This document shows positions 10,985 through 64,000 of a stretch of DNA of 64,000 bases, piece after piece. Each line of letters opens with the position of its first letter. Position 1 is the stretch's first letter. The position numbers and the translations under genes are program-made. A model generated the notes under the pieces. It was not told the origin of the DNA. It ran no database searches and was given only the letters and a program-made list of their open reading frames with translations. The stretch is from Strigamia acuminata (taxonomy: Eukaryota > Arthropoda > Chilopoda > Geophilomorpha > Linotaeniidae): contig OX442319.1 of NCBI GenBank assembly GCA_949358305.1, positions 2,976,001 to 3,040,000 on the forward strand, given 5' to 3'.

Positions 10985-11090
10985 TGCACTTCAATGGCTT
11001 TTCTCCTGTATGTATGTCTAAATGTTTTCTTAGAGTCTCAATACGAGCACTAGAATAAGCACACCAATGGCACTTGAATGTTTTTATCCC
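10985..11090 (-). pseudogene. Lost C-terminal fingers of the C2H2 gene
   Basis: Directly past the TGA at 11093-11091, in the same frame, the sequence still encodes a finger-like FKCHWCAYSS...LRKHLDIH, a TGEKP linker and a further LKCNF before another stop. The TGA sits at the linker position where the other fingers have Thr. This suggests the gene once had one or two more fingers and was shortened by a nonsense change. Confidence 0.65.
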
Positions 11091-12023
11091 TCAATGGGTT
11101 AATAGATGTCTTTTTAAATGCCCACTTTGATTACAAGAATAAGCACACAAATGGCACTTGAATGGTTTCTCTCCGGTGTGGGTTAATAAATGTTCTTTTA
11201 AATGTTCACGACGACTCGAACAATAAGCACACAAATGGCACTTGAATGGTTTTTCTCTAGTATGGGTTAATAAATGTCTTTTTAAATTTCCACTTTCTCT
11301 GCAGGAATAATCACACAAATGGCACTTGAATGGTTTTTTGCCAGTGTGGATTAATAAATGTGTTTTTAGAGTTCCACTTTGACTGCAGGAGTAATCACAC
11401 AAATGGCACTTGAATGGTTTTTCTCTTGTATGGGTTAATAAATGTCTTTTTAAATTTCCACTTTCTCTGCAGGAATAATCACACAAATGACACTTGAATG
11501 GTTTTTCTCCCGTGTGGGTTAATAGATGTCTCCTTAAAGTCCCACTTCCAACACAGGAATAATCACACAAATGGCACTTGAATGGTTTTTCTCCCGTGTG
11601 GGTTAATAGATGTCTCCTTAAAGTCCCACTTCCAACACAGGAATAATCACACAAATGGCACTTGAATGGTTTTTCTCCTGAATGGGTTAATAGATGTCTT
11701 CTTAAATTGTTACTTTGAATGCAAGAATAATCACACAAATGGCACTGGAATGGTTTTTCTCCAGTGTGTGTTAATAGATGTCTTCTTAAACCCCCATGTT
11801 GATTGCAAACATAATCACACAAATGGCACTTGAATGATTTTTCTCCCGTGTGAATTCGCATGTGGACAGTCATGTAACTTTTAAGTCTAAATGAAAGTGA
11901 ACATATTTGACATTTGAAAGGTTTTTCACCCGTGTGTATGAGCATGTGCTGTTCCAAAAGTAAATAGCGTGAACATGAATAATCATACAGATTGCAACTA
12001 TAATCCTGAGGTTTTTTCTCCAT
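11091..12023 (-). CDS. C2H2 zinc-finger protein, about 11 tandem fingers
   Basis: The 310-aa product is almost entirely classical C2H2 fingers with H-TGEKPFKC-type linkers and cores of the form CHLCDYSC. The first finger is degenerate: Tyr replaces its second Cys. Ten complete fingers follow. Two neighbouring fingers are identical in the VGSGTLRRH region and two others share RESGNLKRH, showing recent internal duplication. Two linkers read TREKP and one TGKKP. Such proteins are nuclear DNA-binding factors, but the target is unknown. No KRAB, BTB or ZAD domain is visible. The exon is open upstream to an acceptor TTTCAG near 12076, and the first in-frame ATG is at 12023, giving the chosen start. 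Upstream exons appear non-coding. A premature stop seems to have removed C-terminal fingers. Confidence 0.85.
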   Translation of the reverse strand: MEKKPQDYSCNLYDYSCSRYLLLEQHMLIHTGEKPFKCQICSLSFRLKSYMTVHMRIHTGEKSFKCHLCDYVCNQHGGLRRHLLTHTGEKPFQCHLCDYSCIQSNNLRRHLLTHSGEKPFKCHLCDYSCVGSGTLRRHLLTHTGEKPFKCHLCDYSCVGSGTLRRHLLTHTGEKPFKCHLCDYSCRESGNLKRHLLTHTREKPFKCHLCDYSCSQSGTLKTHLLIHTGKKPFKCHLCDYSCRESGNLKRHLLTHTREKPFKCHLCAYCSSRREHLKEHLLTHTGEKPFKCHLCAYSCNQSGHLKRHLLTH

Positions 12024-44700: not shown

Positions 44701-45080
44701 ATGGCTGAAGCAGCGAACCAAACAACAGGAAGTGGCCACACGACACATCATTTGCATCATTTAAAGAAGTTAGAGGGAATTTCCGACTTTAACAATTGGA
44801 AATTCGCGATGGAAATGCAGCTCGTGCGCGAAGGTTTCTGGGATTATGTTGGTGGAACGAAGATCAATGCCACAAAGAGTCGACTCGCACTGGCCACCAT
44901 TGCACTTGGAGTCCAAGAGCATGTGTACCAGGAAGTGCGTGGTTTTACAACTGCAAAAGAGGCGTGGGAGAATTTGACAAAACTTTACCAAAATAAAAGT
45001 TTGGGAAGCCAAGTTTCTTTATTAAAAGATCTAATTGACATCAAGTACAATGACTGCAAAAATATGGCCGAGCATATTGG
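44701..45080 (+). mobile_element. Copia gag, 5' part (interrupted)
   Basis: Starting at ATG 44701 the frame encodes LEGISDFNNWKFAMEMQLV, then ALATIALGVQEHVYQEVRG, AKEAWENLTKLYQNKS and LKDLIDIKYNDC, the standard gag (UBN2/DUF4219) pattern of Copia elements. It breaks at 45080 in MAEHIG and resumes at 47364 with QQLTDINYKIDDKMMAAML. No protease, integrase or reverse transcriptase of this element was found in the window, so it is also 3'-truncated. Confidence 0.85.
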
Positions 45081-47358
45081 TCGGAAAGTGACCATTTGTG
45101 ACCGGCTGCCCGCTCAGTCCGTTCACTTGCCTGCAACACACGGCGCTTCCACGGCTCTCGCGCACCTCGTGTGTTTTCTTGTGCGCACCTGTTGCGGACC
45201 CCCGCACCAGGTGGAGCTGATGGTCGTCGGCCCGGCCAATGGCAGAGTTTACAGTTGACGTCATGATGACGTCACACCCGTTCGAAAACGAGGCTAAGGG
45301 GTATAAACAAACCCAAATAGCATAGGATTCTCAATACAATGTACATAAAACCTGATTATTTCTTTGGCAAATTTTATTTTAAAGATGAATCGCACATTTT
45401 CAAAATTTTTATATGTTTATTAACATACTTTTACTTCTTTTTAATTATTTTCCACATTTTTTCACTGGTTTAAAATGTTTTTTGGTTTGGTCATTTTTGT
45501 CTTCAGATCAGCGGATGGACTAATTGTCAGCATTCAATCGTCAGCCGACAATTTTTGGCATTCTGCTTGCGAATTTTGGCCGTCAGCTGTCTACTTTTGC
45601 GTCCGACCATCAGCCGTCAATTGTCGCGGCCGTCAGCTGTAGTTTGTCTTCGCCCGACGATTTGTTGGCCGTCAGCTGACGATTTTTGGCCATCGCCGTC
45701 GACTGACGCGGCCATCGCCGTCGACTGTCGCGGCCATCGACTATCGCGGCCATCAGCTGTTGCGTCCGACTGCTGTTGCGTCCGACTGTCAGCAAACGAT
45801 TGTTGGCCGACAGCTGACAATTTTTGGCCATCGCTGTCGACAGTCGCGGCCGTCAGCTGACGATTTTTGGCCATCGCCGTCGACTGACGCGGCCATCAGC
45901 TGTTGCGTTCGACCGTCAGCTGGCGATTGTTGGCCGACAGCTGACGATTTTTGGCCGTCAGCCGACGACTGATGTGTCCGACCATCAGCCGTCAATTGTC
46001 GCGGCCGTCAGCTGTAGATTGTCGCGGCCTTTGCCGTAGATTGTCGCGGCCTTCGCCCGACGATTTGAGGCCGTCAGCTGGCGATTGTCGGCCGACAGCT
46101 GACAATTTTTGGCCGTTGCTGTCGACTGTCGCGACCGTCAGCTGCAGATTGACGCGGCCGTCGCTGTCGACTGTCGCGGTCGTCAGCTGGCGATTGTTGA
46201 CTGTCGACAGTCGGCAGCTGACGGCCAAAAATCGTCAGCTGACGGCCTCGACAGTCGACAGCGACGGCCGCGTCAATCTGCAGCTGACGGTCGCGACAGT
46301 CGACAGCAACGGCCAAAAATTGTCAGCTGTCGGCCAACAATCGCCAGCTGACAGTCGGACGCAACAGCAGTCGGACGCAACAGCTGATGGCCGCGACGGC
46401 GATGGCCGCGTCAGTCGACGGCGATGGCCAAAAATCGTCAGCTGACGGCCAACAAATCGTCGGGCGAAGACAAACTACAGCTGACGGCCGCGACAATTGA
46501 CGGCTGATGGTCGGATGCAAAAGTAGACAGCTGACGGCCAAAATTCGCAAGCAGAATGCCAAAAATTGTCGGCTGACGATTGACAGCTGACAATTAGTCC
46601 ATCCGCTGATCTGAAGACAAAAATGACCAAACCAAAAAACATTTTAAACCAGTGAAAAAATGTGGAAAATAATTAAAAAGAAGTAAAAGTATGTTAATAA
46701 ACATATAAAAATTTTGAAAATGTGCGATTCATCTTTAAAATAAAATTTGCCAAAGAAATAATCAGGTTTTATGTACATTGTATTGAGAATCCTATGCTAT
46801 TTGGGTTTGTTTATACCCCTTAGCCTCGTTTTCGAACGGGTGTGACGTCACAGTGACGTAACTGTAAACTCTGCCATTGGGAACCGGAAGTGCCCCTTCC
46901 GGAAGTGGTTGGCCCCGCAGAGGCCCAAGAGAGTTCTCTAACTTCCAGCATGGCAAACGGTCGCTTCCACGATCGCTCTTCGACGCTGGCGGCAATGACG
47001 AATTCAGTTGGCGTAGCGACTCTGTCGCCCGCCGGGACTTGATAGTCCACGTTCCCAATGTCCGACCTGCGTTCTCCGTGAACGCAGCAACGACACGGCT
47101 AAACGGTATTCCGACCACGTGTGTCATGGCGGCCATTGGCCGCCGTGCCACGCGGTCAGGTTAGGAATGGCTATTCGTAGCTATCGCATTGGGAAATGCA
47201 CTGGGAGACACCACATCATACCCCTAGACATCAATAAAGCTTACCTTAAACTAAACTTGTGTCTCTTGTGTATTTCGGAGTGAATTCTATCGTGTGTGTT
47301 GTGTCCAGCACCTCGTGGCTCTCCCCCAACCACGTGGCGACCGTCCAAACACTCACAC
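45081..47358. mobile_element. Insertion in Copia gag: solo-LTR-like repeat carrying a fold-back element
   Basis: Flanked by ATTGG at 45076-45080 and 47359-47363, a 5-bp duplication that exactly splits a gag codon series. Outer parts (45081-45235 and 46881-47358) match the repeat at 40150-40490. The right part has AATAAAGCTTACC and a GT-rich stretch to the end, like an LTR R-U5. The canonical TG...CA ends are not evident. Confidence 0.65.
45236..46880. mobile_element. 1.6-kb fold-back palindrome with CRE/TATA-like arms
   Basis: Outer arms are near-perfect inverted repeats of about 380 bp: CCAATGGCAGAGTTTACAG at the left faces its complement at 46862-46880. Each arm reads inward: CCAAT box, TGACGTCA (twice in the left arm), then GGGGTATAAACAAA. 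The inner 1 kb is a dense array of GTCAGCTGACGATTTTTGG and GTCGCGGCCGTCAGCTG words in both orientations. All long frames in it are by-products of the repeat. Architecture is that of fold-back transposons. Confidence 0.8.
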
Positions 47359-52500: not shown

Positions 52501-53599
52501 AGAAATTTTATCTAAAGCAAAGTGGTACGGTACGAAAAGTACTGTGTATCTGTACCAGTACCGCTGCAGAAATCCTCACAATCTGAAATTCTGGACGCTA
52601 CAGCAGGAGAAGCTGGCGAATTTCGACGCTGGCAAAGCCCCGACCCTTACTTGTCTTTGTAAAGCCCCATTACATTTGGAGGCCTTGTTCTGCACTCACA
52701 GTACCCTGTGTACATTTGTATATGTATATTTTGGTTATGGTTATAATAATTAGTCATACTCATTTCTTTAGACAATTAAATGTATATAATATTTTATAAG
52801 TTATACACTTGTGGTTGGCTCATTATATCTATATTAAATCACATCTATCTATCAATTTATTGTCGCATTGTTTACGAAGTCAGATTATTACATTTTAGGT
52901 TTATTCACTTGTTTACACTTATTCCAGCCCCTAAGGCTATTTCTTGTCACCTGTCCAGTGACCTCCCACCTTTACTGCAAGAGCAGCATCTTAGTCAACC
53001 CTTAATATTGTTTTATATCATTCCCTAATTAACCCTCATCATGTATTCTCGTCACACAACAGTTTTTGTGCAATACAATACCAGGACCATGAAAGAAGTG
53101 TCACAAGAAATTGTAAAAGTTGTGGTGACCTCAAATATTCCTATTTGAGTGCGCACCATATTTCCAAATTGTCTTTTAAACATATTCAACAAGCCTATAT
53201 GTTTTATTTCAATGTAAATTGAAATAAAACATACATTAATAAAATATAAAACAAGACACAATATTACCCAAATAATATTGTGTTTTGCAGCAAGTTTTGG
53301 CCCAGCAACAGCGTCAACCAATCGCGCTGCAGCGTGCATTGCTTTGATGATGCTGCTAGGCGTGTGCCTGGGCGGAGCATCCCTTCCCCTCGCGCGTGCC
53401 CGGCTCAATTGTTGCACACGACCCGAAGGCGGCCGTGTGTGATCTTTGTGCAACTCGTCATCTGCGCAGCTTTTCTGAGCAGATTTAGAAGTGAGCCAAA
53501 CGGTTTTGGCCCACTCTTCCCGCATTCTTGATTCTGCTTCCAAACCATTCACATCTGTGTCAAACTTATGCCAACCATTGCTAAGTGTGATCTGTGATA

Positions 53600-54185
53600 T
53601 CTGGAAGAGTTGAGATTCATTGCTGGTCTGTACCCACTGTACGGAATAGCGCTTTCACTGCTTAAATTACTACGCGTAATTTAAGCCATTTCTGTGTGGA
53701 ATTGACATAGAGCTTGCTCTGTCAATTTGAAGGCTTTGTGTTGAGTTTAACTCCACAAGGCAGATTGTGTTAAGACGGATTGTTACGTCGAGCTTGCTCC
53801 GTAATAATCACTTTCACTGTGTGTGAGAAGTATTCTCGTGTCGAGCGTGCTCCACGAGGATTTTAGAATATTTAGCAACGTATTTTAGCGTCGAGTTTAC
53901 TCCGCTAAAATCCCGCGCTCACACGACGCCGTCGACGCCATCTTGGAGCCAACGGTCAACTGTGAGTGTACATTTGAAGAAGAAGCCAGATCGACCCCAA
54001 ACATTTTAAATAATACCTCCTTTGTATTTTGAACGATTAAAACTATCTAATTTTTCCTTTACTCTGTGTAAAATCATTCCCCTAGACAAACATTTGGCCA
54101 CAGAGTAGAAGTCCTGTACGGCATCTCTACGACGATTGCTTATTGAATTTACATAATTTAATAAGTAAAAACCCGGATCGCCGCA
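53600..54185 (+). mobile_element. 5' LTR region of the Ty3/gypsy element
   Basis: The right end is placed at CCGCA, 54185, two bases before the primer site at 54188. The left end was not resolved because no second LTR is in the window. It contains the hairpin array at 53660-53911 and a GCCATCTTGG motif at 53938, a common initiator-type site. Confidence 0.5.
53660..53911 (+). promoter_or_regulatory. Array of six hairpins, five with a shared loop
   Basis: Hairpins at 53660-53686, 53700-53727, 53733-53761, 53779-53808, 53832-53861 and 53882-53911. The last five share one plan: an outer stem of 7-9 pairs, a two-base bulge (TC, TA or TT) on the 5' side, an inner GAG/CTC stem, and a four- or five-base loop (CTTG twice, CGTG, TTTA, TTTAA). 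Outer stems differ completely in sequence yet stay complementary, with single G-T wobbles. The last three are each exactly 30 nt. The first is an 11-bp perfect hairpin with a different loop. Confidence 0.85.
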
Positions 54186-54187
54186 CT

Positions 54188-54205
54188 TGGGGGCCCGGCC
54201 GGGAT
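54188..54205 (+). promoter_or_regulatory. Primer-binding site, tRNA-Pro type
   Basis: TGGGGGCCCGGCCGGGAT differs at two positions from TGGGGGCTCGTCCGGGAT, the classical site complementary to the 3' end of tRNA-Pro. It starts with TGG, complement of the CCA tail, and lies two bases after the LTR end. Confidence 0.8.
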
Positions 54206-54277
54206 AGTTTTGATTGTTAAAATCCGATTTTTGCGAAAAAATCCTTTCTTTCCATTGTTCTTTTTCAATTTGACAAA

Positions 54278-57172
54278 ATGGCGACGCCAATGCAAATTGT
54301 AAAACGACAGCGAGGTCGACCAAGCACTCAGAAACGAGCAGCGACGGTTTTGCCGGCTCTCGAGCCTGAAATGCTTATGGAGAAAATTATTTCCGAGGAA
54401 ATAACACCAGTTCCAGATCCGAAACAACTTAAGGATGCTGAAAATGAAGTTGCTAGAGCATTAAGCGCTTCAAGTACGAGTTCTAACGACCAAGAACTCC
54501 CGCCACTTCCACTGGAGGAAGTGGAAAATACGTTACGTGAAATGGAAAGTGAATCGTCTCACGAATCACCTCCTCGCATGACCATGCTGGATGCTTTGAG
54601 AAATCAAGCACGCCAGGATGGCGCCCAAATAACGGACGACATGACGGTGGAAGAGATTCATCGCGCCATGATACGACTTCACACTGACCGAGCCGTTTCA
54701 AATTTAAAATTTGAAATGGAACGGAAAGAAGCAGAGCTTCAACAACAAAAAGCTGAGGTTGAGCTTCAACACATGGAACTCAATCGACAAAATGAGGAAT
54801 TTCTAGCCCAAAAAGCTAGAGAATACCGATTAAAAGGTGAAGTGGAAGATCTTTCTAAAATGAACGCTAGAAATGAACTTTCAATTCGCTCACACCAAGA
54901 GGCGCGAAGACAGCTCGAGCTTACCAAAAGTAAGCTGGAGCAGAAAAATAAAGAATTGATTGATTTGGCAGACCACTACCAACGCAATCATAATCAATTA
55001 GTGAGATATGCTGCTGAATTAGACACACGTGCTAAAACACAGCGTACTCGCGAGAGCAAAATAGCTAAGCGTGAAGATGAGATTTTCCACTCGCTGGATC
55101 AACCCAGTACGAGCGGACAAGTCAAGTCTAGCGACCCTGCTAAGCGATTACAACCAGAAGAATCGCAAAATCAAATAAATGAGAATGAAATTCTCCGAGC
55201 TGATTTGTTGCGCGCTCAAGAAGAGCTTGCAGAAATGAAAGATCGTTTGCAAGCAAGGAATTATACTGACCAATTGGTGCAACCAGAAATGGCTGCGCCA
55301 ACTGTCCCTATTTTGACCCCCGAAACAATAACAATTTCTGTTGTTTCAGAGTTAAGTAGCCAATCTGGATTATCGAGTGATGACGACCAACGTTCGCGTC
55401 GTCGCCATCGCTCAAAAAGAAAACGTCCTTCAGATTCTGAGGAACGGAGAGCTGATCGCAATCCACTTCCTGGTAATCGAAATCCTATTTTTCACAACAG
55501 TGACCGACTGTTGGGGATGGTAGACGATCGAAATAGACGGCATGAAACTGGTATTCATGTTACTCGAACGATACCACTGGCTCAACAGCAAGACTCGTCA
55601 AAAAGAAGTCGACGAGACACGAATCCAGCATGCGAACCACCCGACGGACATGAAAGCCCGCCAGGTGGGGGTCAGTATAGAAGAAATCCACCAGATGGAG
55701 GAAATTCAGATGGACACGGAGATGGACCACCTGGAGGTGGACGTCGACCGCCAGACGATGACGGCGACCCACCCGACCCACCTGAAACACCACATTTTAA
55801 CACGCCTTCAAATTCACAATCTGATTCAAGGTCGGATTCTGATGTGAATGCGCAACAAGAACGCGATAATCGACATCGATCTCATCGACGTCGACATCGA
55901 GGCCATTCTTCTCGGCGTAATACACATTATTACACCGCTGAAGAAATTGATCGATTATTAGCTGATCGTCGATCTTCCGATCGATCTGACGCTACTGCCG
56001 ATAATGCTGACATCGCATTACGACAGAAAATTGCCCAATATACTGCAATCAACTGGACACACGATCTAGTTGACGAAAGAACTATTAGATGGGATCACAT
56101 CAAACCCGCTTTATTCGATGGAGAATGGGAAGCTGGATCCACTCTTTTAGATGAAGTTTTACGAATTTCAAGGTTGAATGGCATTGCATGTCACACTGCT
56201 TTGAAAAGAGTAGTACCTAAAGCTCTTATAGACCGAGCTGAGAAATGGTTTTATTCTAAACAATTTCAAAATTGGAACCACTTTGTAGAAGAATTCATGA
56301 CTGAGTATGGAGAGTCAAGTGAAGACTTATTACAAATGTGGGATAATCTTTCTCAAAATAAAGGCGAAAGTCTTCGCTCTTATTTAAGAAGGACTGAAGA
56401 TTTATTGGTCACTCTCCCTTATACGATGGGAGACGCAGCCATTGATCGTCAATTCCGTCGTGGATTGACAGATTATTCAAAAAATGTTCTACTTTCTGTA
56501 CGAGCACCTTATCCGGGTGGTTTCGCTGAATTAGCCAAATTTATGCGAGCCAATCAAATAAGGATTGACGAAAATTATAAAGCTTATCTACCAGCTGATG
56601 AAAAAGTTGCGTATGCTAAGCGACAGCAACGGAGAAAGGAATTAGCTAAAGATACACGTTTTGCTAATACCCCTCTTTTGCAACCCCCAAAACGAGGAGA
56701 TTTTTTGGCAGAGACTGCTAAGGAATCTAAAAAGGGATCGGATGGGAAAAATCCACATCCAACCCCTAAAGCTCACTTAGCCGAAGTGACAGAAATGGAA
56801 ACTGTTTCTGAACCAGAGAAATCTGACTCGGAACCAGAAAGCGAGGCTGCAGCTGCTTTATTAGCCCGTAATAACGCAGTAGCTCGAAAATTTGGACCAA
56901 AGATGGCGCCTAAAAACGTTACTTTTGGTTCACCAAAGACAGACGCGCTCAGTAGATCGAAGTCGCCGACCCCTAAAAAGGACGAAGCCAAACGTTCAAG
57001 TTCGCCTTCGCCAAAAGTCGCGAAATCGCCTGCTACTGACCCGTGTAATATTTGTAAAAAATTGGGACATTGGGCTAAAGAATGTCCTGACAGAAAATCG
57101 AGCAAAGACAAGATTATAGAAGAGTTCGAGAAATCGATGAAATCAATCGGCGAACTTCTAAAAAACTTGTAA
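54278..57172 (+). CDS. gag: Ty3/gypsy gag polyprotein
   Basis: 964 residues from ATG at 54278. An N-terminal basic motif is followed by a long Glu/Gln/Lys-rich coiled coil (about residues 140-270), an Arg/Ser-rich and Pro/Gly-rich stretch (PPGGGQYRRNPPDGG), then a retrotransposon-gag capsid region with WKHI-like WTHDLVDERTIRWDHIKPAL, FVEEFMTEYGESSEDLLQMW and NKGESLRSYLRRTEDLL. One CCHC knuckle, CNICKKLGHWAKEC, is at about residues 923-936. It is long for a gypsy gag because of the coiled coil. The frame is intact. A slippery site overlaps its last codons. Confidence 0.9.
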   Translation: MATPMQIVKRQRGRPSTQKRAATVLPALEPEMLMEKIISEEITPVPDPKQLKDAENEVARALSASSTSSNDQELPPLPLEEVENTLREMESESSHESPPRMTMLDALRNQARQDGAQITDDMTVEEIHRAMIRLHTDRAVSNLKFEMERKEAELQQQKAEVELQHMELNRQNEEFLAQKAREYRLKGEVEDLSKMNARNELSIRSHQEARRQLELTKSKLEQKNKELIDLADHYQRNHNQLVRYAAELDTRAKTQRTRESKIAKREDEIFHSLDQPSTSGQVKSSDPAKRLQPEESQNQINENEILRADLLRAQEELAEMKDRLQARNYTDQLVQPEMAAPTVPILTPETITISVVSELSSQSGLSSDDDQRSRRRHRSKRKRPSDSEERRADRNPLPGNRNPIFHNSDRLLGMVDDRNRRHETGIHVTRTIPLAQQQDSSKRSRRDTNPACEPPDGHESPPGGGQYRRNPPDGGNSDGHGDGPPGGGRRPPDDDGDPPDPPETPHFNTPSNSQSDSRSDSDVNAQQERDNRHRSHRRRHRGHSSRRNTHYYTAEEIDRLLADRRSSDRSDATADNADIALRQKIAQYTAINWTHDLVDERTIRWDHIKPALFDGEWEAGSTLLDEVLRISRLNGIACHTALKRVVPKALIDRAEKWFYSKQFQNWNHFVEEFMTEYGESSEDLLQMWDNLSQNKGESLRSYLRRTEDLLVTLPYTMGDAAIDRQFRRGLTDYSKNVLLSVRAPYPGGFAELAKFMRANQIRIDENYKAYLPADEKVAYAKRQQRRKELAKDTRFANTPLLQPPKRGDFLAETAKESKKGSDGKNPHPTPKAHLAEVTEMETVSEPEKSDSEPESEAAAALLARNNAVARKFGPKMAPKNVTFGSPKTDALSRSKSPTPKKDEAKRSSSPSPKVAKSPATDPCNICKKLGHWAKECPDRKSSKDKIIEEFEKSMKSIGELLKNL

Positions 57173-57201
57173 GCGCGCATCCAGACGGTCTAGTGGATGC
57201 G
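57160..57201 (+). promoter_or_regulatory. -1 ribosomal frameshift signal between gag and pol
   Basis: The heptamer A AAA AAC occupies 57160-57166 in gag phase, two codons before the gag stop. Nine bases later CGCATCCA (57176-57183) and TGGATGCG (57194-57201) form a perfect 8-bp stem with a 10-base loop. A -1 shift leads into the pol frame, which is open from well upstream of this point. Confidence 0.88.
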
Positions 57202-60200
57202 ACGCCTACCGCCTCGGAAAATGAACTAACACCATCTCAAATTTTAGATGAATTTTTGAATACTCAGATTAAATTAGAATTAGAAAATAATTTAATATTT
57301 CCAAAAATTGATGTTTCCAGTTTAAGGCTTGTGCTGCAAAATGAAAACATCACTGAAGAATTTTTTAAAGAAAAAGTTCAACAATTAAAAGTTGATTGGG
57401 AATCTAAAATGAAAGATGCTGTTACTTTGCTAGATGGAAAAACTAGGCCAACACCTGAAATCACTGAAGGATCAGATAAAATTGATTTACCTGGTCTTGA
57501 TGAATGTATTGAAAAATTAATGGCTACAACGTTAGTCACTAATGATTTATTGGACGAATTACCATTGGATCCGCCGATAGAAATTAAGCCACCGCGACGT
57601 TTTAAATGCAAGTACGCGGACATACCAAACAGCAATGATTTGCCGACGATTCGATTGCAGACGGCAAACGGTATGATAACAGGGATGTTAGACTCTGGAG
57701 CTAATCGAAGCTTCATGGCCTACTCCGTAGTAATTTCGCTGAAACTGGAAGATGAAATTCGACCAATTGGACAGGGTGTGAGAGTTACGACTGCTTCAGA
57801 AGATGTAGTCCCTGAAGGAACTCTCCTACTTTCTTTTGCGTGGACACACGGGATGTTAAGTCATCCATTCATAATTTTAAGAAATAAATATCCTATTATT
57901 TTATTAGGATGTGATTTCATGAATCGACTCAATATTCAACCAAATCCTAAGACCATGTCTTGGAATTTTGTCAAGTCTTTGAAAGAAGATTTACCTTTTG
58001 TTCCTCAAGCGATTCTTGATCGTTATCAAGAGTTTCTTGATCCACCCGAAGAAATCATGAAACGCGACTTTATTAAAGCAAATCACATGAAAGCTGGTTC
58101 CGCCACTGCATGTCAAGCTAAAGTTGCCGATGAAGAAAACATAGTACAAAGACTTGTTAGCGACGCTAATTTGTCAATGGAAAATAGTTTAATGCTTGAA
58201 AAAGTATTAAAGAAACATGAAAAGATTTTATCACGCCGACCAGGTAGAACACACCTCGTTAGGCATGAAATTAAACTGGACACTAAAGTTCCAATTAGAG
58301 TTCCGTTTAAAAGCGTAAATCCACAGAAACGTGAAATTATCCGTCAAATCTGTCAAGATATGTTGGATAATGGGTACGTCGAACAAGCCACTGGAGACTA
58401 TGGAATGCGAATAGTTCTAGTGATGCGTCCGGATTGTGATCCGAGACTTTGCATTGATTTTAGACCACTCAATGCACATACATTATACGATCCTCCTCAA
58501 ATGCCGAGCATTGAGGAAATCTTGCGAGAACTCGGAAGATTTGAATGGGTCACAACAATAGATTTGTCAAAAGGCTATTGGCAAATAGAGGTTCATCCGA
58601 ACGACCGTGCTAAAACTGCGTTTTGGAGCCCTTTGGGTCGACTACAATTTCGAGTCATGCCCTTTGGTCTCGTAAATGCGCCGTCAACTTTCCAAAAGTT
58701 GATAGAAAAGATCTTGGGGGACGCCTATCGAAAATTCGCATGGGCCTACCTCGATGATATAATTATTATATCAAAAAATTTTGAAGAACACATGATTCAT
58801 CTGGAAGAAATTCTGAGTAAACTTGAAAATGCAAATCTTCATGTTCATCCAGAAAAATCGAAATTTGGCAGAAAAGAATTAACTTTTCTTGGTTACAAGT
58901 TAAGTGTTCAAGGAGTTAGTGTCGACCCTAAAAAAGTCGCCGCCATTAAAGAAATGCCAGCTCCTTCAAATTTGAAAGAGTTGCAAAGATTTTTGGGAAT
59001 GGTGAACTTTTTTCACAGATTACTCAAGAATCTAGCAGTCATGACAGAACCTCTACGTCCTTTACTCAAAAAGGATGTGGAATTTATTTGGTCAGAAATT
59101 CATCAAGAAGCTTTTGATCAAATAAAAGATGCTTTGACAAATGCAGAAACAATGGCCATGCCTGATTTGACAGAACCATTTATTGTGCATACCGACGCCA
59201 GCAGAAAAGGACTAGGCGCCGCGCTTATGCAAATGAGAGAAATCGATGATCAAAATATCGAAGTGCCTTGTGTTTATGCCAGCAGAAGTTTGCAACCTGC
59301 TGAGATAAATTACAGCGCCACAGAATTAGAATGCCTTGCGGTAATCTGGGCATTACGTAAATTTCGACATTATTTGGAATTTACCACATTCATAGTTAGG
59401 ACTGACCATCAAGCACTAAAATGGCTGATGCAGTTAGACGAACCTGCCGGAAGGTTAGCGCGTTGGCAAATGGAGCTGATGCGCTACTCTTTCGAAATAC
59501 AATATATTAAAGGTCCACTAAATGTTTTAGCGGATGCTTTATCCAGATCACCGATTGACAAACCGGAAAATCCTGAAGATGATGGAGATAATGACGAATT
59601 ATTATCTTATTGTCCATCACCACAACGAAATTGGAAAATGGGAAAATTTCATGAACTTCCTGTCTCCACACTGGAGGAAAAGGAAGATCACGAATTCGTC
59701 AATTATTGGACTAAAATTTATGACCCCTCTGAGGAATCAGATGACGTCATAAAAGCGCAAATTTCAAGGAGATTCCAAGTTCCTTCGTCAAATGTTTTAA
59801 TAAAAGCATTTGTCGCCAAAATTGTAGAGCGTCTTGATTGTGAACCCCCCACAAGGGAAGACATAATCAAGGCCCAGAAAGAAGATAAAGTTTGCCAATT
59901 AATGCGTAATTTTTTAAATTGTAATCAATTTCCGCCTGACGTCACAACGCGACTACAGAGGAAACAATATAGAAAACACGCAACCACCTTCTTAATTGAA
60001 GATGACTTATTAATGCAATTTCATCCCACAATGTCTGATGAATTGGGGGAGGATGGGAGAGCACTCAAAGTTTTTGTACCTCAGACATTGAAGTATAAAA
60101 TTATTTGGCTAATGCATGGCCACCCACTTTCTGGCCACCCAGGAATTGCAAGGACTCTTTATCGAGCACGCCGAATTTATACCTGGAAAGGCATGAAATC

Positions 60201-61641
60201 GGACATTACGAGATTCATTCGACATTGCGAGCGTTGTCAAGCTTGCAAACCTCGAACGAAAGGACAAATTGAAGCAGCGCAAATGGGTCCTTACAGCCCA
60301 TTTGACTGTCTAAGTGTTGATTTGACTGGCCCGAAACCTCGGACGCGCAAAAACAACACACATATTTTAGTCATACTTGACGTGGCAACTCATTGGCCAG
60401 AATTATATCCAATGTGTAACCCCACTGCTGGAAAAGTAGCAAATTGCATTTATCACCTTTCCATGAGCATGGGATTCCCTCGTAAAATTATTTCTGACAA
60501 CGGCCCGCAATTTCGTGCCCAAGTCTTTAAAAAATTTTGTGAAAAGTTCAAGATGGTTCCAACACCAACTTCAACGTATCACCCACAAGCTAACCCGGTT
60601 GAAAGGGTTAACCGTGACATCAAATATTTGGTTGCAATTTATTCATCGGTTCATTCCAAATGGGACGAATATTTGCGTGAATTTGCATTTAGTTTGAGAA
60701 CTACGGTGACGAGAGGAAGAGACTTCTCTCCCGCATTTCTTAACTTTTTTCGCGAACTCAGAGTACCTTGGGATCCAAGAATACCTGAAGGAATTTTGGT
60801 CGTAGATCCAAAAAACCCACATTTATACGTGCAAAAATTAGAAGCCGTTATCGCCGAAACATATCAGCACATGATGTCACACGTGTTAGATTTGCGTAGA
60901 CGAGTTAATCTTAAAAAAGAAGGTGAGAAGTTCTCCAATTTTAAATTAAACGATTTAGTTTGGAGAGATTCTCATGTTTTGTCGAGCGCTGCCCGCGGCA
61001 TTGCAGCTGGCATCGCTGATAAAAGAACAGGACCTTATGTAATAACCAAAGTATTACAGGGAGGATCCGTAGAATTGAGAAAGCTAGAAAATAACGAAAT
61101 ATTTCCAGCTGTCCATTCGTCTGAATTAACTCCGTATTTCCCGAGTTTCGATCAGGAAGTATGGTTAGAAGGCGAAGAAGTCGGTCAAAAGACTGAAAAT
61201 ATAATTAATACGTTAGATGACGATGAATTAAAGAAAATACCTGTCGATAATTCATCCAAACCACAAATGGAGTCAGACCTCGTGAATAACGACGTTGAAC
61301 TTCGTGACAGTTTCAAAAAGCTTGAAATTGCTAAAAAATTAAATAAAAAGGTGTTTTTAGAAAAGAAACAAAAAACATCTGAAATAAAAGACTCATCTGA
61401 CTCAGTCTCCGATGACAATGAAGACGGCGATTTAAATACAATAAATCCCTCGCCGACAAAGAGATATAATCTTCGGACTCGTAAACCGAGAGGAAAAAAC
61501 AACATGTGTCTTCTCCCCTCGATAACCTCGAGATCCAGGGATCAGCCTTATGACGTCAGGAGCAATTCCTCGAGCCCTAAGGTAACCAAACAACCAATGA
61601 GATTGGATGACGTCACTAACAGCGACGTTACCCAAACGTAA
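57193..61641 (+). CDS. pol: Ty3/gypsy pol: protease, RT, RNase H, integrase
   Basis: An intact frame of about 1482 codons, made by -1 frameshift from gag rather than its own start (the first codon of the listed span is GTG). Numbered from 57193: aspartic protease LDSGA with Asp 167; reverse transcriptase with IDLSKGYWQIEVHP and YLDD at 519-522; RNase H with HTDASRKGLGAAL (Asp 668); integrase zinc-binding HHCC at about 975-1018 (HGHPLSGHPG, CERCQAC); integrase core Asp 1043, Asp 1102 and Glu 1137, a D,D(35)E arrangement. The C-terminal tail is acidic and then basic. All catalytic residues looked for are present, so the enzyme set appears intact. No chromodomain was recognised. Confidence 0.93.
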   Translation: MDATPTASENELTPSQILDEFLNTQIKLELENNLIFPKIDVSSLRLVLQNENITEEFFKEKVQQLKVDWESKMKDAVTLLDGKTRPTPEITEGSDKIDLPGLDECIEKLMATTLVTNDLLDELPLDPPIEIKPPRRFKCKYADIPNSNDLPTIRLQTANGMITGMLDSGANRSFMAYSVVISLKLEDEIRPIGQGVRVTTASEDVVPEGTLLLSFAWTHGMLSHPFIILRNKYPIILLGCDFMNRLNIQPNPKTMSWNFVKSLKEDLPFVPQAILDRYQEFLDPPEEIMKRDFIKANHMKAGSATACQAKVADEENIVQRLVSDANLSMENSLMLEKVLKKHEKILSRRPGRTHLVRHEIKLDTKVPIRVPFKSVNPQKREIIRQICQDMLDNGYVEQATGDYGMRIVLVMRPDCDPRLCIDFRPLNAHTLYDPPQMPSIEEILRELGRFEWVTTIDLSKGYWQIEVHPNDRAKTAFWSPLGRLQFRVMPFGLVNAPSTFQKLIEKILGDAYRKFAWAYLDDIIIISKNFEEHMIHLEEILSKLENANLHVHPEKSKFGRKELTFLGYKLSVQGVSVDPKKVAAIKEMPAPSNLKELQRFLGMVNFFHRLLKNLAVMTEPLRPLLKKDVEFIWSEIHQEAFDQIKDALTNAETMAMPDLTEPFIVHTDASRKGLGAALMQMREIDDQNIEVPCVYASRSLQPAEINYSATELECLAVIWALRKFRHYLEFTTFIVRTDHQALKWLMQLDEPAGRLARWQMELMRYSFEIQYIKGPLNVLADALSRSPIDKPENPEDDGDNDELLSYCPSPQRNWKMGKFHELPVSTLEEKEDHEFVNYWTKIYDPSEESDDVIKAQISRRFQVPSSNVLIKAFVAKIVERLDCEPPTREDIIKAQKEDKVCQLMRNFLNCNQFPPDVTTRLQRKQYRKHATTFLIEDDLLMQFHPTMSDELGEDGRALKVFVPQTLKYKIIWLMHGHPLSGHPGIARTLYRARRIYTWKGMKSDITRFIRHCERCQACKPRTKGQIEAAQMGPYSPFDCLSVDLTGPKPRTRKNNTHILVILDVATHWPELYPMCNPTAGKVANCIYHLSMSMGFPRKIISDNGPQFRAQVFKKFCEKFKMVPTPTSTYHPQANPVERVNRDIKYLVAIYSSVHSKWDEYLREFAFSLRTTVTRGRDFSPAFLNFFRELRVPWDPRIPEGILVVDPKNPHLYVQKLEAVIAETYQHMMSHVLDLRRRVNLKKEGEKFSNFKLNDLVWRDSHVLSSAARGIAAGIADKRTGPYVITKVLQGGSVELRKLENNEIFPAVHSSELTPYFPSFDQEVWLEGEEVGQKTENIINTLDDDELKKIPVDNSSKPQMESDLVNNDVELRDSFKKLEIAKKLNKKVFLEKKQKTSEIKDSSDSVSDDNEDGDLNTINPSPTKRYNLRTRKPRGKNNMCLLPSITSRSRDQPYDVRSNSSSPKVTKQPMRLDDVTNSDVTQT

Positions 61642-61850: not shown

Positions 61851-64000
61851 ATGGAAGGAGAGGAACCGAAAGAAGGAAGCGAAGCCGGCGCCAACAGCCT
61901 CGAATTAGAGACAAATTCGACGCTGCTTGGTTCCGCAAATACTTCGAATACATCCGTGGATGTCACCGAAGAGTCCGCCGAAGCGTCCGCCGAAGCTCAA
62001 GCCGCTCTGGCCGACGCTGCTGCCCGTTTGCCAGTCACGCCGTCTCAGCCCCGACTACGAGGAGGCCTATTCGCCGATCCGAACGGCGAAACTCGTGCAC
62101 AGAGACACGACCGGGTAAATAATTCAAAATAAAATTACCTTTCAGTCATGAAAAGTAATTAAAAGTGCATTTTCACTCGGAAAAAGCGAAAAGTTCGTTG
62201 GTAACGCCTTCGCAAGAAGGCGCCGCCATTTTTATCATCAGATGGCGCTGTGTCTCATTTTTGAGGCGTTGCTACGGCAACGCTCCAAACACTGAAACAT
62301 AGCCGTCGGAAACAACGTTTTTCACGATTTTTCAAATATTTTGAAAAATTTAACGAATCTAAACTGCCGAATGAAATCTCACCCGTGATTTTATTCACTG
62401 AAAATTCGGAAATAATTATTTTACACGAAAAAATGGATTTTAATTATTTCTTCGAATATTTTACAGATCATCCAACTTCGGGAGACGCATCTCGACTTGC
62501 ACCCCGATGTTCCGACCGCTCCGGGAGTCTGGCGACATGCATTGCCGCCAGAAATCATCAAGTCTAAGGGAAGACTGACGTTTTGGGCGGCCCGACATAA
62601 ATTCTCCAAGGCCTTAAACAAGCGATGGGGAACGAAGTTTCGGATCGCTTATTTAATCGATGGATTCGGTCATCGCGACGCCCTCGAGTGGGCAATGAAG
62701 CGCGACACCTTCGGACCACTGCGAAACGTGTTGCTCGACTTCGCCTTCACAGTGATCGCTCAAGAAACGCGAGACCATCGCCGTTACTTCAACGCTCCTG
62801 CGTGGGAGCGTCGACAGATTTTGGAGGACATCTTCCAACGTCTTGACCAAACCAAGGCCGAGGTTGTACGCCTCTACCACGAATCTTTCCGTGTAACAAC
62901 GGACGGAAAGAAACGTTGGGTGCCGACATGCCAGTCGGAGATGCATCAGCTAGCCATGGGCGGATGTTTCCATGCTGATTTCGTGCCAAACCCGTATCCA
63001 GAGCCTGAGCCCCGGGTACAGGTCGCTTCCACCATCCACGTGGTGCCACCGCGCTCCACGTCGAGGTCACGATCATCGAGGTCGCCCTACAGTGGCCGTC
63101 GCTCCTCCCCAACACAGTCGTCGGGGGAAGGCGCCATTGGAGGGTTACCTCCACTCCAGAAGGCTCGTCATCGCTCACATCACCGACGCGAGCCGACGCC
63201 GCCAAAAAGACATTCGAAGTCCGTGTCGAGACCCACATCCCGAAGCCGACCTCGAGTGCAATCGCGCCAATCTTCCACGAGGAGTTCACTCTCGTCGCGT
63301 GAAGAAAAGTCCAACGCTTCTCAGCTTAGCGCTTCCACCTCCTCCTGCCAGATTGACTGGTCGGACGAGATAGCGAAGGAAGATCGTCGCATCGCCGCTT
63401 TGCAAGCCGGTCAAGGAGACGTCAACACCTCTTTGCCGTTCGCTTGCCGTCCAGTCACCAGCGACATGCGACCAGACCCATCGGTGCCCGTGCCACAAGT
63501 GACATCGGTCATCCGTTTTGAGGGATACGTCTCTCACGAACCATTTCCCGCACAGGAGTGCGCTGATCTCTGGAGGCGATTCTCATCGTTTCCCGAGACA
63601 GCCCAAACAATGTACCTCGCGCATCTGGACGAATACCAACTCGCTCAGATCCGCGAAGGAGAGAAGGAATGGCAATGGCTTGCCCGAGAGCTTGCGTCGT
63701 GCAAGTCCGACAAGCAACTGCAACGGACGCTGCAGAAAATGAACAGGAAATTGTCGGAGGGACTTCTTCGAATCCTGTTCCAAGGAGTCTTTCCCGACCC
63801 ACAGATTGCTCTGGCGGCCGCCACTCGATTGTGGACGGTGCCGTTAGGGCTTCCACGAGCCTTGCTGGACGATTGGGAGTCAGTTCGCCCCGATCCTCCA
63901 ACGATGCTCGCCGAATTGACGCAACAAGCCGAGGCGACTGGCGAAACTCCGGCTGGATCCGCCATTCGACTACGGCAGGAATGGGCTGCGCTGAAGCAGC
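61851..64000 (+). CDS. Uncharacterised Arg/Ser-rich protein, two coding exons, runs off the window
   Basis: Exon 1 is 61851-62114, intron 62115-62466 (donor CGG|GTAAAT, acceptor TTTACAG), exon 2 from 62467 to at least 64000 with no stop in over 510 codons. Exon 1 encodes an acidic, Ala/Ser/Glu-rich start (ESAEASAEAQAALADAAARL). Exon 2 opens IIQLRETHLDLHPDVPTAPG, passes through a globular region (TFWAARHKFSKALNKRWGTK, AFTVIAQETRDHRRYFNAPA), an SR-type stretch (SRSRSSRSPYSGRRSSP and similar) and a second helical region. I do not recognise the family. Codons are GC-rich at third positions, unlike the AT-rich gag and pol just upstream, so it probably has a different origin. It is either a host gene next to the retroelement or the first ORF of another element. 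Confidence 0.65.

Follow-up and report, generated by a model that had tools for sequence, protein, structure and literature searches.

Why should the LTR of a retroelement carry six hairpins in a row, five of them built to one plan, and what might such an array bind? The question arose in a 64-kb window, the whole stretch of DNA that was analysed (C8:2976001-3040000), in a host genome of 237.5 Mb. A preliminary description of this DNA had pointed to the hairpins and suggested several uses for them. Here, we determined where the array lies, whether its pairing is kept among copies and in which molecule, and which known RNA motif its conserved core resembles.

The array and the element that carries it

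The element is 12.8 kb long from end to end, and the array lies midway in its LTR. The main parts of the element are as follows.

53117..53120, plus strand: 4-bp target-site duplication AAGT; the second copy is past the 3' LTR, outside the window
53121..54185, plus strand: 5' LTR, 1065 bp, TG...CA
54188..54205, plus strand: primer-binding-site-like stretch after the LTR
54278..57172, plus strand: gag ORF, 964 aa, with Retrotrans_gag, a zinc knuckle and two arginine-rich patches
57193..61641, plus strand: pol ORF, with RT, RNase H and integrase (H2C2 and rve)
61851..64000 and on into C8:3040000-3040800, plus strand: third coding region, between pol and the 3' LTR

The 3' LTR (C8:3040865-3041929) shows no difference from the 5' LTR, and the insertion is thus young. 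Besides gag and pol, the internal region holds another large coding region, the third. The presence of gag, of a downstream pol with RT, RNase H and integrase, and of LTRs with a target-site duplication assigned the element to Ty3/gypsy (Metaviridae); the array is thus in a gypsy LTR, as the preliminary description had proposed. Its zinc-knuckle Gag, RT-RNaseH-integrase order, LTRs and 4-bp duplication are all like those of Metaviridae. Unlike Ty3/gypsy LTR retrotransposons, it has a conserved LTR hairpin array and a large third coding region. The latter is probably spliced. The part of it that was searched against Pfam (62467-63300) gave no match, and the ORF at 62467-63999 had no protein homolog at E ≤ 0.001 among 7995 candidates scored; by eye, the middle of the region has an arginine/serine-rich look. 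No homolog of the gag protein was found at E ≤ 0.001 among 7992 candidates scored, no pol relative was found in the viral contigs searched, and the tRNA 3'-end pattern cognate to 54188-54205 had 0 matches in the genome. The element is present in multiple copies: at least 40 copies match the array. Of 268 candidates, 40 were scored, with identities of 92-100%, and 26 of these 40 formed 13 pairs at distances of 11.0-12.7 kb, as expected of LTR pairs.

The six hairpins are arranged as follows.

53660..53686, plus strand: H1, 11 bp, without bulge and without GAG/CTC core
53699..53728, plus strand: H2, TAR-like core
53733..53761, plus strand: H3, TAR-like core; loop of 5 nt in the window copy and 4 nt in some others
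53778..53809, plus strand: H4, TAR-like core; least variable, 0.7% divergence
53832..53861, plus strand: H5, TAR-like core; competing fold
53882..53911, plus strand: H6, TAR-like core; competing fold

H2-H6 follow one plan, in which an outer stem of 8-10 bp is followed by a 5' bulge of 2 nt, by GAG paired to CTC, and by a small loop of 4-5 nt whose first and last bases are able to pair. Hairpins with a 2-nt 5' bulge, GAG/CTC and at least 5 outer pairs occur only at H2-H6 on either strand of the window. Dinucleotide shuffles of 53640-53930 (n=3000) yielded no such hairpin in 2990 cases and one in 10, as against five observed; chance hairpins were thus ruled out, and the comparison with shuffled sequences of equal composition that the preliminary description had called for turned out in favour of the array. 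Across the genome, the core GTCGAGCNTGCTC occurs 435 times and its reversed control 8 times, TCGAGTTTACTCCG occurs 123 times versus 0 for its control, and the wider RYRTHGAGYNNRCTCYRY occurs 1133 times versus 32.

When each of the six hairpins was folded alone it took the described form, and the hairpins of the preliminary description are confirmed. The array region folded better than its shuffles, with a z of -5.46 as sense RNA and -3.51 as antisense. The MFE structure of 53640-53920 contained all six hairpins, at mean pair probabilities of 0.79-0.99. H5 and H6 were present in the MFE structure of one of the four fragments folded. For 53640-53930 and 53481-53961 another structure took the place of both; it was more stable, by 3.9 and 5.3 kcal/mol, than the one with all hairpins enforced, and the pair probabilities were 0.01 (H5) and 0.16-0.17 (H6). 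For 53690-53915 the two hairpins fell outside the MFE structure despite probabilities of 0.75 and 0.83. The folding of 53640-53930, which the preliminary description had proposed as a check, agreed with that description in part. Two other arrays folded less strongly, which speaks against the reading given below: L045, with a z of -1.76 (9/200 shuffles as good), and L036, with a z of -3.14.

Two further landmarks of the LTR bear on where the array would lie in the transcript.

53281..53440, plus strand: block 5' of the array that is conserved among copies (0.4-2.1% divergence, in bins of 40 nt)
53962..54085, plus strand: putative leader intron, with a GTGAGT donor and a CCTAG acceptor

The upstream block appears promoter-like; a bacterial-type promoter scan gave no excess. 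On the other side of the array, the GTGAGT (53962) and CCTAG (54081-54085) motifs are conserved and the middle between them evolves fast, a pattern that makes 53962-54085 resemble a leader intron. In that case the array would sit in leader exon 1; it could instead lie in U3, at the 3' end of the RNA. Other conserved or inverted sequences were seen in this LTR. Conserved ACTCTGTG/CACAGAGT arms flank the putative 3' splice site (54056-54115), another conserved hairpin with a GCCAAA/TTTGGC core lies ~140 nt upstream of H1 (53487-53517), and two near-perfect AT-rich inverted repeats, at 53198-53233 (16-bp arms) and 53252-53287 (15-bp arms), lie at the upstream edge of the promoter-like block.

Pairing among copies of the array

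We collected 88 loci (L001-L088), some of which represent the same place twice. After L037, which belongs to another family, and six incomplete loci were left out, 81 remained, 69 of them distinct. Part of the loci had been picked by at least one core matching a pattern, and the set is thus biased towards intact cores. Of the 5244 stem cells in these 69 arrays, 5228 were paired, so that complementarity, which the preliminary description had asked to be checked in other copies of the LTR, is retained in them. Changes were then counted on a tree built from the non-hairpin columns. This revealed 51 two-sided events that kept a pair, 70 one-sided events in which pairing was kept via G-U, 14 events that broke a pair and one that restored it. 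When the 3' partner was slid by -3, -2, -1, 1, 2 or 3 columns as a control, the number of two-sided pair-keeping events was 0, 0, 2, 0, 0 and 0, respectively. The covariation that had been claimed among the paralogous hairpins of one molecule thus holds between LTR copies as well.

The two-sided events were distributed unevenly: one in H1, 30 in H2, 13 in H3, none in H4 and H5, and seven in H6. The 43 events in H2 and H3 are probably an inflated count, owing to exchange among paralogs; two paralog types alternate among copies at these hairpins, and both occur together in L036. For H5, all changes were one-sided, and 27 of 31 events kept the pair via G-U, while four broke it. H6 has two compensated pairs among copies. 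L036 has seven core hairpins, with both H2/H3 types side by side, and repeat number therein changed through duplication of a hairpin pair within the LTR. A hairpin replicon that multiplies by itself, as the preliminary description had considered, does not fit this pattern.

Divergence was measured in an earlier set of 55 distinct rows. The three longer spacers diverged by 12-27% and the hairpins by 0.7-9.7%; the short spacers diverged by 0.5% (53687-53698) and 4.2% (53729-53732). The first of these, the H1-H2 spacer, is nearly invariant, unlike the fast-diverging longer spacers of the array.

A less biased set was obtained from a diverged 524-bp LTR stretch that includes the array. Its best 20 of 40 listed matches (L119-L138; 19 distinct rows) were selected independently of the core, and a few of them are places already sampled. 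In these relatives, 1383 of 1418 cells were paired, and pairing was kept in 73 of 77 two-sided and 123 of 154 one-sided changes relative to the window. Differences, gaps included, amounted to 31-41% in the longer spacers, 28% in the flank before H1 and 14.5% in the flank after H6. The three inner base pairs were changed at 12 of 564 positions, as compared with 296 of 2272 other paired positions, and the first bulge base was T in 93 of 94 cases.

These counts also bear on the molecule in which pairing matters. Among the 69 arrays, Watson-Crick pairs changed to G-U in 51 events (21 columns) and to A-C in seven events (6 columns), a count that may slightly favour G-U at stem ends, as the window copy, with G-U accepted as a pair, served to define the stems; the corresponding numbers of cells in the diverged relatives were 79 and 14. 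Such an asymmetry is expected of sense RNA, and neither DNA nor antisense RNA predicts it. A DNA-level element whose palindromes serve as protein-binding DNA or form cruciforms, for instance in an insulator-like array, would agree with the DNA regulatory sites that LTRs contain, with GAGCNNGCTC being itself a DNA palindrome, and with an antisense strand that folds better than its shuffles. In the Su(Hw) insulator of Drosophila gypsy, sites for protein binding are repeated close to the element's 5' end, as an array of DNA sequence. The present array resembles it as a set of repeated sites near a gypsy 5' end, and differs in that pairing in the sense RNA is what is kept. Given that G-U is accepted and A-C mostly is not, and that the outer stems differ among paralogs, we consider a DNA-level element very improbable, and a DNA cruciform or an antisense structure was rejected on the asymmetry. 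Common descent of recent copies, with no selection on a shared palindrome, would be compatible with the youth of the window copy, whose LTRs are identical, and with the 92-100% likeness of the 40 scored copies. It is at odds with the diverged relatives, in which two-sided changes nearly always keep pairing despite spacers that differ by 31-41%, and with the shuffles, which do not reproduce the array. The tree events in the 69 arrays, together with the diverged relatives, refute descent alone, and we give it practically no credence. In conclusion, the hairpins are real and are kept as sense-strand RNA structure. This makes them a strong case of a covarying RNA element of the sense strand in an LTR, even if the ligand considered below proves different.

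The bulged core compared with TAR and arginine sandwich motifs

Core statistics were computed for 50 distinct arrays (250 hairpins) out of 68 loci, of which one had no match and four were excluded by length. The near-invariant core of H2-H6 comprises a purine, a U-N bulge and a GAG/CUC inner stem; variation is seen in the loop and at the second base of the bulge. The first bulge base was T in 249 of 250 hairpins, and the base below the bulge was a purine (A or G) in all 250. The second bulge base was C in 138 hairpins, T in 102 and A in 10, and departed from the commonest letter of its hairpin in 84 of 250 cells. The first bulge base and the three inner pairs (G-C, A-U, G-C) were changed in nine of 1750 cells, versus 347 of 5789 elsewhere in the hairpins. 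The statement of the preliminary description that folding is kept rather than sequence is hence strongly supported for the outer stems, and incomplete in that sequence itself is conserved at the first base of the bulge and in the GAG/CTC inner stem.

The loop took the forms CTTG, CGTG, TTTA, TCTA, TGTA, TGTG, CCTG, CCAG and several of 5 nt among copies. A fourth inner pair can form between loop positions 1 and 4 in most copies, and these positions co-vary from C-G (148 of 250) to T-A (102 of 250). Such pairing leaves little loop for kissing, which argues against the dimer-linkage or kissing-loop array that had been suggested.

The available part of one published account (PMC11885821) reports that in HIV-1 TAR, Tat binding is abolished by U23C, by U23A, and by a swap of G26-C39 or of G28-C37, while any base is tolerated at position 24 and U25 can be deleted; it also gives the UU bulge as the natural form of HIV-2 TAR, and a contact of a Tat arginine with G21 in one structure. 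In the accessible text of two further sources (PMC9378691; PMC6189040), an arginine sandwich is formed by a bulge pyrimidine that caps the n+2 pair, and the base preceding the bulge serves as the floor. Human 7SK has four such motifs within one helical turn, according to a portion of the latter source (PMC6189040), and HIV-2 TAR has three stem-loops in one model, according to an excerpt of another (PMC10970485).

We compared the array with these maps in the 345 hairpins of the 69 distinct arrays, from which the rules of this LTR hairpin element could be read; the likeness to TAR was a post hoc observation. A U23-type base, G26-C39, A27-U38 and a paired purine below the bulge, with G-U allowed below the bulge, were found in 340 of 345 hairpins, and the equivalent of G28-C37, a second arginine contact, in 335. 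H2 in 32 of the 69 arrays carries what we take to be the 12-base site of HIV-2 TAR. At the sequence level, the hairpins also have the bulge pyrimidine, the n+2 pair capable of a triple and the paired base before the bulge that characterize arginine sandwiches. The agreement of kept and free positions with the published functional map argues for a TAR-type reading.

Insofar as the excerpts available describe lentiviral TAR (PMC11885821), the array shares with it a 5' pyrimidine bulge that begins with U, stands above a paired purine, is followed by G-C, A-U and G-C, and is free at its second base. Unlike TAR, it consists of five core hairpins with a lower stem of R-Y-R in an invertebrate Ty3/gypsy element. 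The apical hexaloop of TAR, the Cyclin T1 site, is absent among the array loops, a counterpart of G21 is absent (249 of 250 hairpins have C or T there), and no Tat has been identified. The likeness to the arginine sandwiches of 7SK stem-loop 1, as partially described in the cited sources (PMC9378691; PMC6189040), lies in the bulge pyrimidine capping the n+2 pair and the base before the bulge forming the floor; in contrast to the human 7SK motifs, the array has one motif per hairpin in five hairpins. Rfam gave no match in the window at the gathering threshold and none in 53121-54300 up to E=1, and the 7SK covariance model had no match in the window; a known Rfam family was thus rejected.

Our preferred reading, to which we assign a probability of about 0.6, is that H2-H6 are tandem arginine-sandwich sites, of the type of the Tat-binding core or the 7SK bulge, in the sense RNA of a Ty3/gypsy LTR. 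Among the functions that the preliminary description had listed, a repeated RNA element for protein binding fits best, and sequence comparison would narrow it to an arginine-sandwich core of the TAR/7SK type. In such a site, the first bulge U would dock on the A-U pair two steps above, and an arginine would be stacked between this U and the purine below the bulge. With five copies, avidity may be gained for a protein that carries at least one arginine-rich patch.

The same core could be read by a protein in another way. The hairpins may be a packaging signal or binding sites for Gag, whose zinc knuckle or another RNA-binding fold would recognize the bulge together with GAG/CTC by means other than an arginine sandwich. 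Gag does carry a zinc knuckle, and repeated leader hairpins are typical of packaging signals. Zinc knuckles, on the other hand, usually read unpaired G in loops, and the loop bases of the array are not kept among copies. Moreover, use of the splice-donor-like sequence at 53962, which its conservation suggests, would place the array in spliced RNA as well, and this counts against packaging. Overall, we regard this explanation as unlikely. We consider it less likely still that the hairpins are sites for a host RNA-binding protein, acting in export, stability or translation and unrelated to arginine-rich peptides. A strongly kept core with outer stems that vary freely is a general feature of hairpins bound by proteins, and the arginine-sandwich ligand is only a candidate, both of which would suit a host protein; the near-invariant set, namely the first bulge U, the G-C and A-U above it and the purine below, is the very set of the arginine sandwich.

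Candidate ligands and a second repeat family

If H2-H6 are arginine-sandwich sites, our leading guess for their ligand is either the element's own Gag or the host HEXIM/P-TEFb system, and going by sequence features both are possible candidates. In the nascent 5' leader, an array with its ligand bound would modulate elongation or serve as a tag on the element's RNA. The arginine-rich patches of Gag lie at aa 371-385 and aa 531-548, and the 40 copies scored among 96 candidates had 97-100% identity over the gag stretch that contains both. Patches of this kind are common, and those of Gag could be non-specific. On the host side, the Rfam model Arthropod_7SK had one match in the genome (L139 = C1:11838213-11838506, minus strand; 58.8 bits, gathering score 44), which makes an arthropod host probable. 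The first stem-loop of the match includes ACAUUGAUC, an A-UU-GA bulge that resembles the A39-U40U41 bulge of the third sandwich of human 7SK in the portion of that account available (PMC6189040). The ACAUUGA of this match also occurs in H2 of many copies of the array. HEXIM had two matches in the genome (L140 = C3:29670377-29670757, minus strand, and C3:28238780-28239112), the best with an E of 1.6e-42; the better match lies within an ORF with basic stretches.

A more far-reaching proposal is that a gypsy element independently evolved a switch of the TAR/7SK type, in which the array, in nascent RNA, would free P-TEFb of HEXIM or recruit an arginine-rich protein encoded by the element, thereby licensing elongation from the LTR. 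We offer this as speculation that is unlikely to be right. TAR/Tat is treated as a lentiviral speciality, with 7SK/HEXIM as its cellular model. If the proposal is true, RNA control by arginine sandwiches arose separately in another group of retroelements, and it becomes testable whether elongation control by an RNA decoy is a general retroelement strategy. A limited literature search found no precedent for such an array in retroelements.

Cores of this kind were also found in a different, old repeat of ~1 kb (family B), of which L037 contains two. Family B has at least 46 matches of 69-100% identity (40 of 67 candidates scored). Its cores have a TC or TT bulge, differing stems and either GAG/CTC or GAC/GTC, the latter often where the array has GAG/CTC. 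At 30 loci, 15 cores (13 once two repeated copies are removed) were found in the matched zones versus four in the larger flanks. The 2-nt bulge was part of the MFE structure in 12 of 46 rows, representing seven different hairpins, which speaks against our reading; we suspect that this low number reflects decay and a 2-nt loop that is impossible for the folding program. Genome-wide, the GAC-type core showed no excess (60 versus 51 for its control), and none of the 20 longest ORFs was recognised as a coding part of family B itself. L113 and L114 were rejected as an LTR pair: they are identical over all 3102 bases, which indicates a duplicated segment. The occurrence of the same bulge core in family B is a hint that it is an older theme in this genome. 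The family (L037, L089-L118; for example, L093:1541-1648) is dispersed and LTR-sized, and has tandem units near 80 and 160 nt.

Elsewhere in the window, a long imperfect inverted repeat at 45236-46880, with arms of ~690 bp at 92%, consists of GTCGACAGCTG-like units and lies beside a copia-type gag ORF (44701-45258). An 84-bp tandem repeat at 11052-11852 codes, on the minus strand, for an array of C2H2 zinc fingers.
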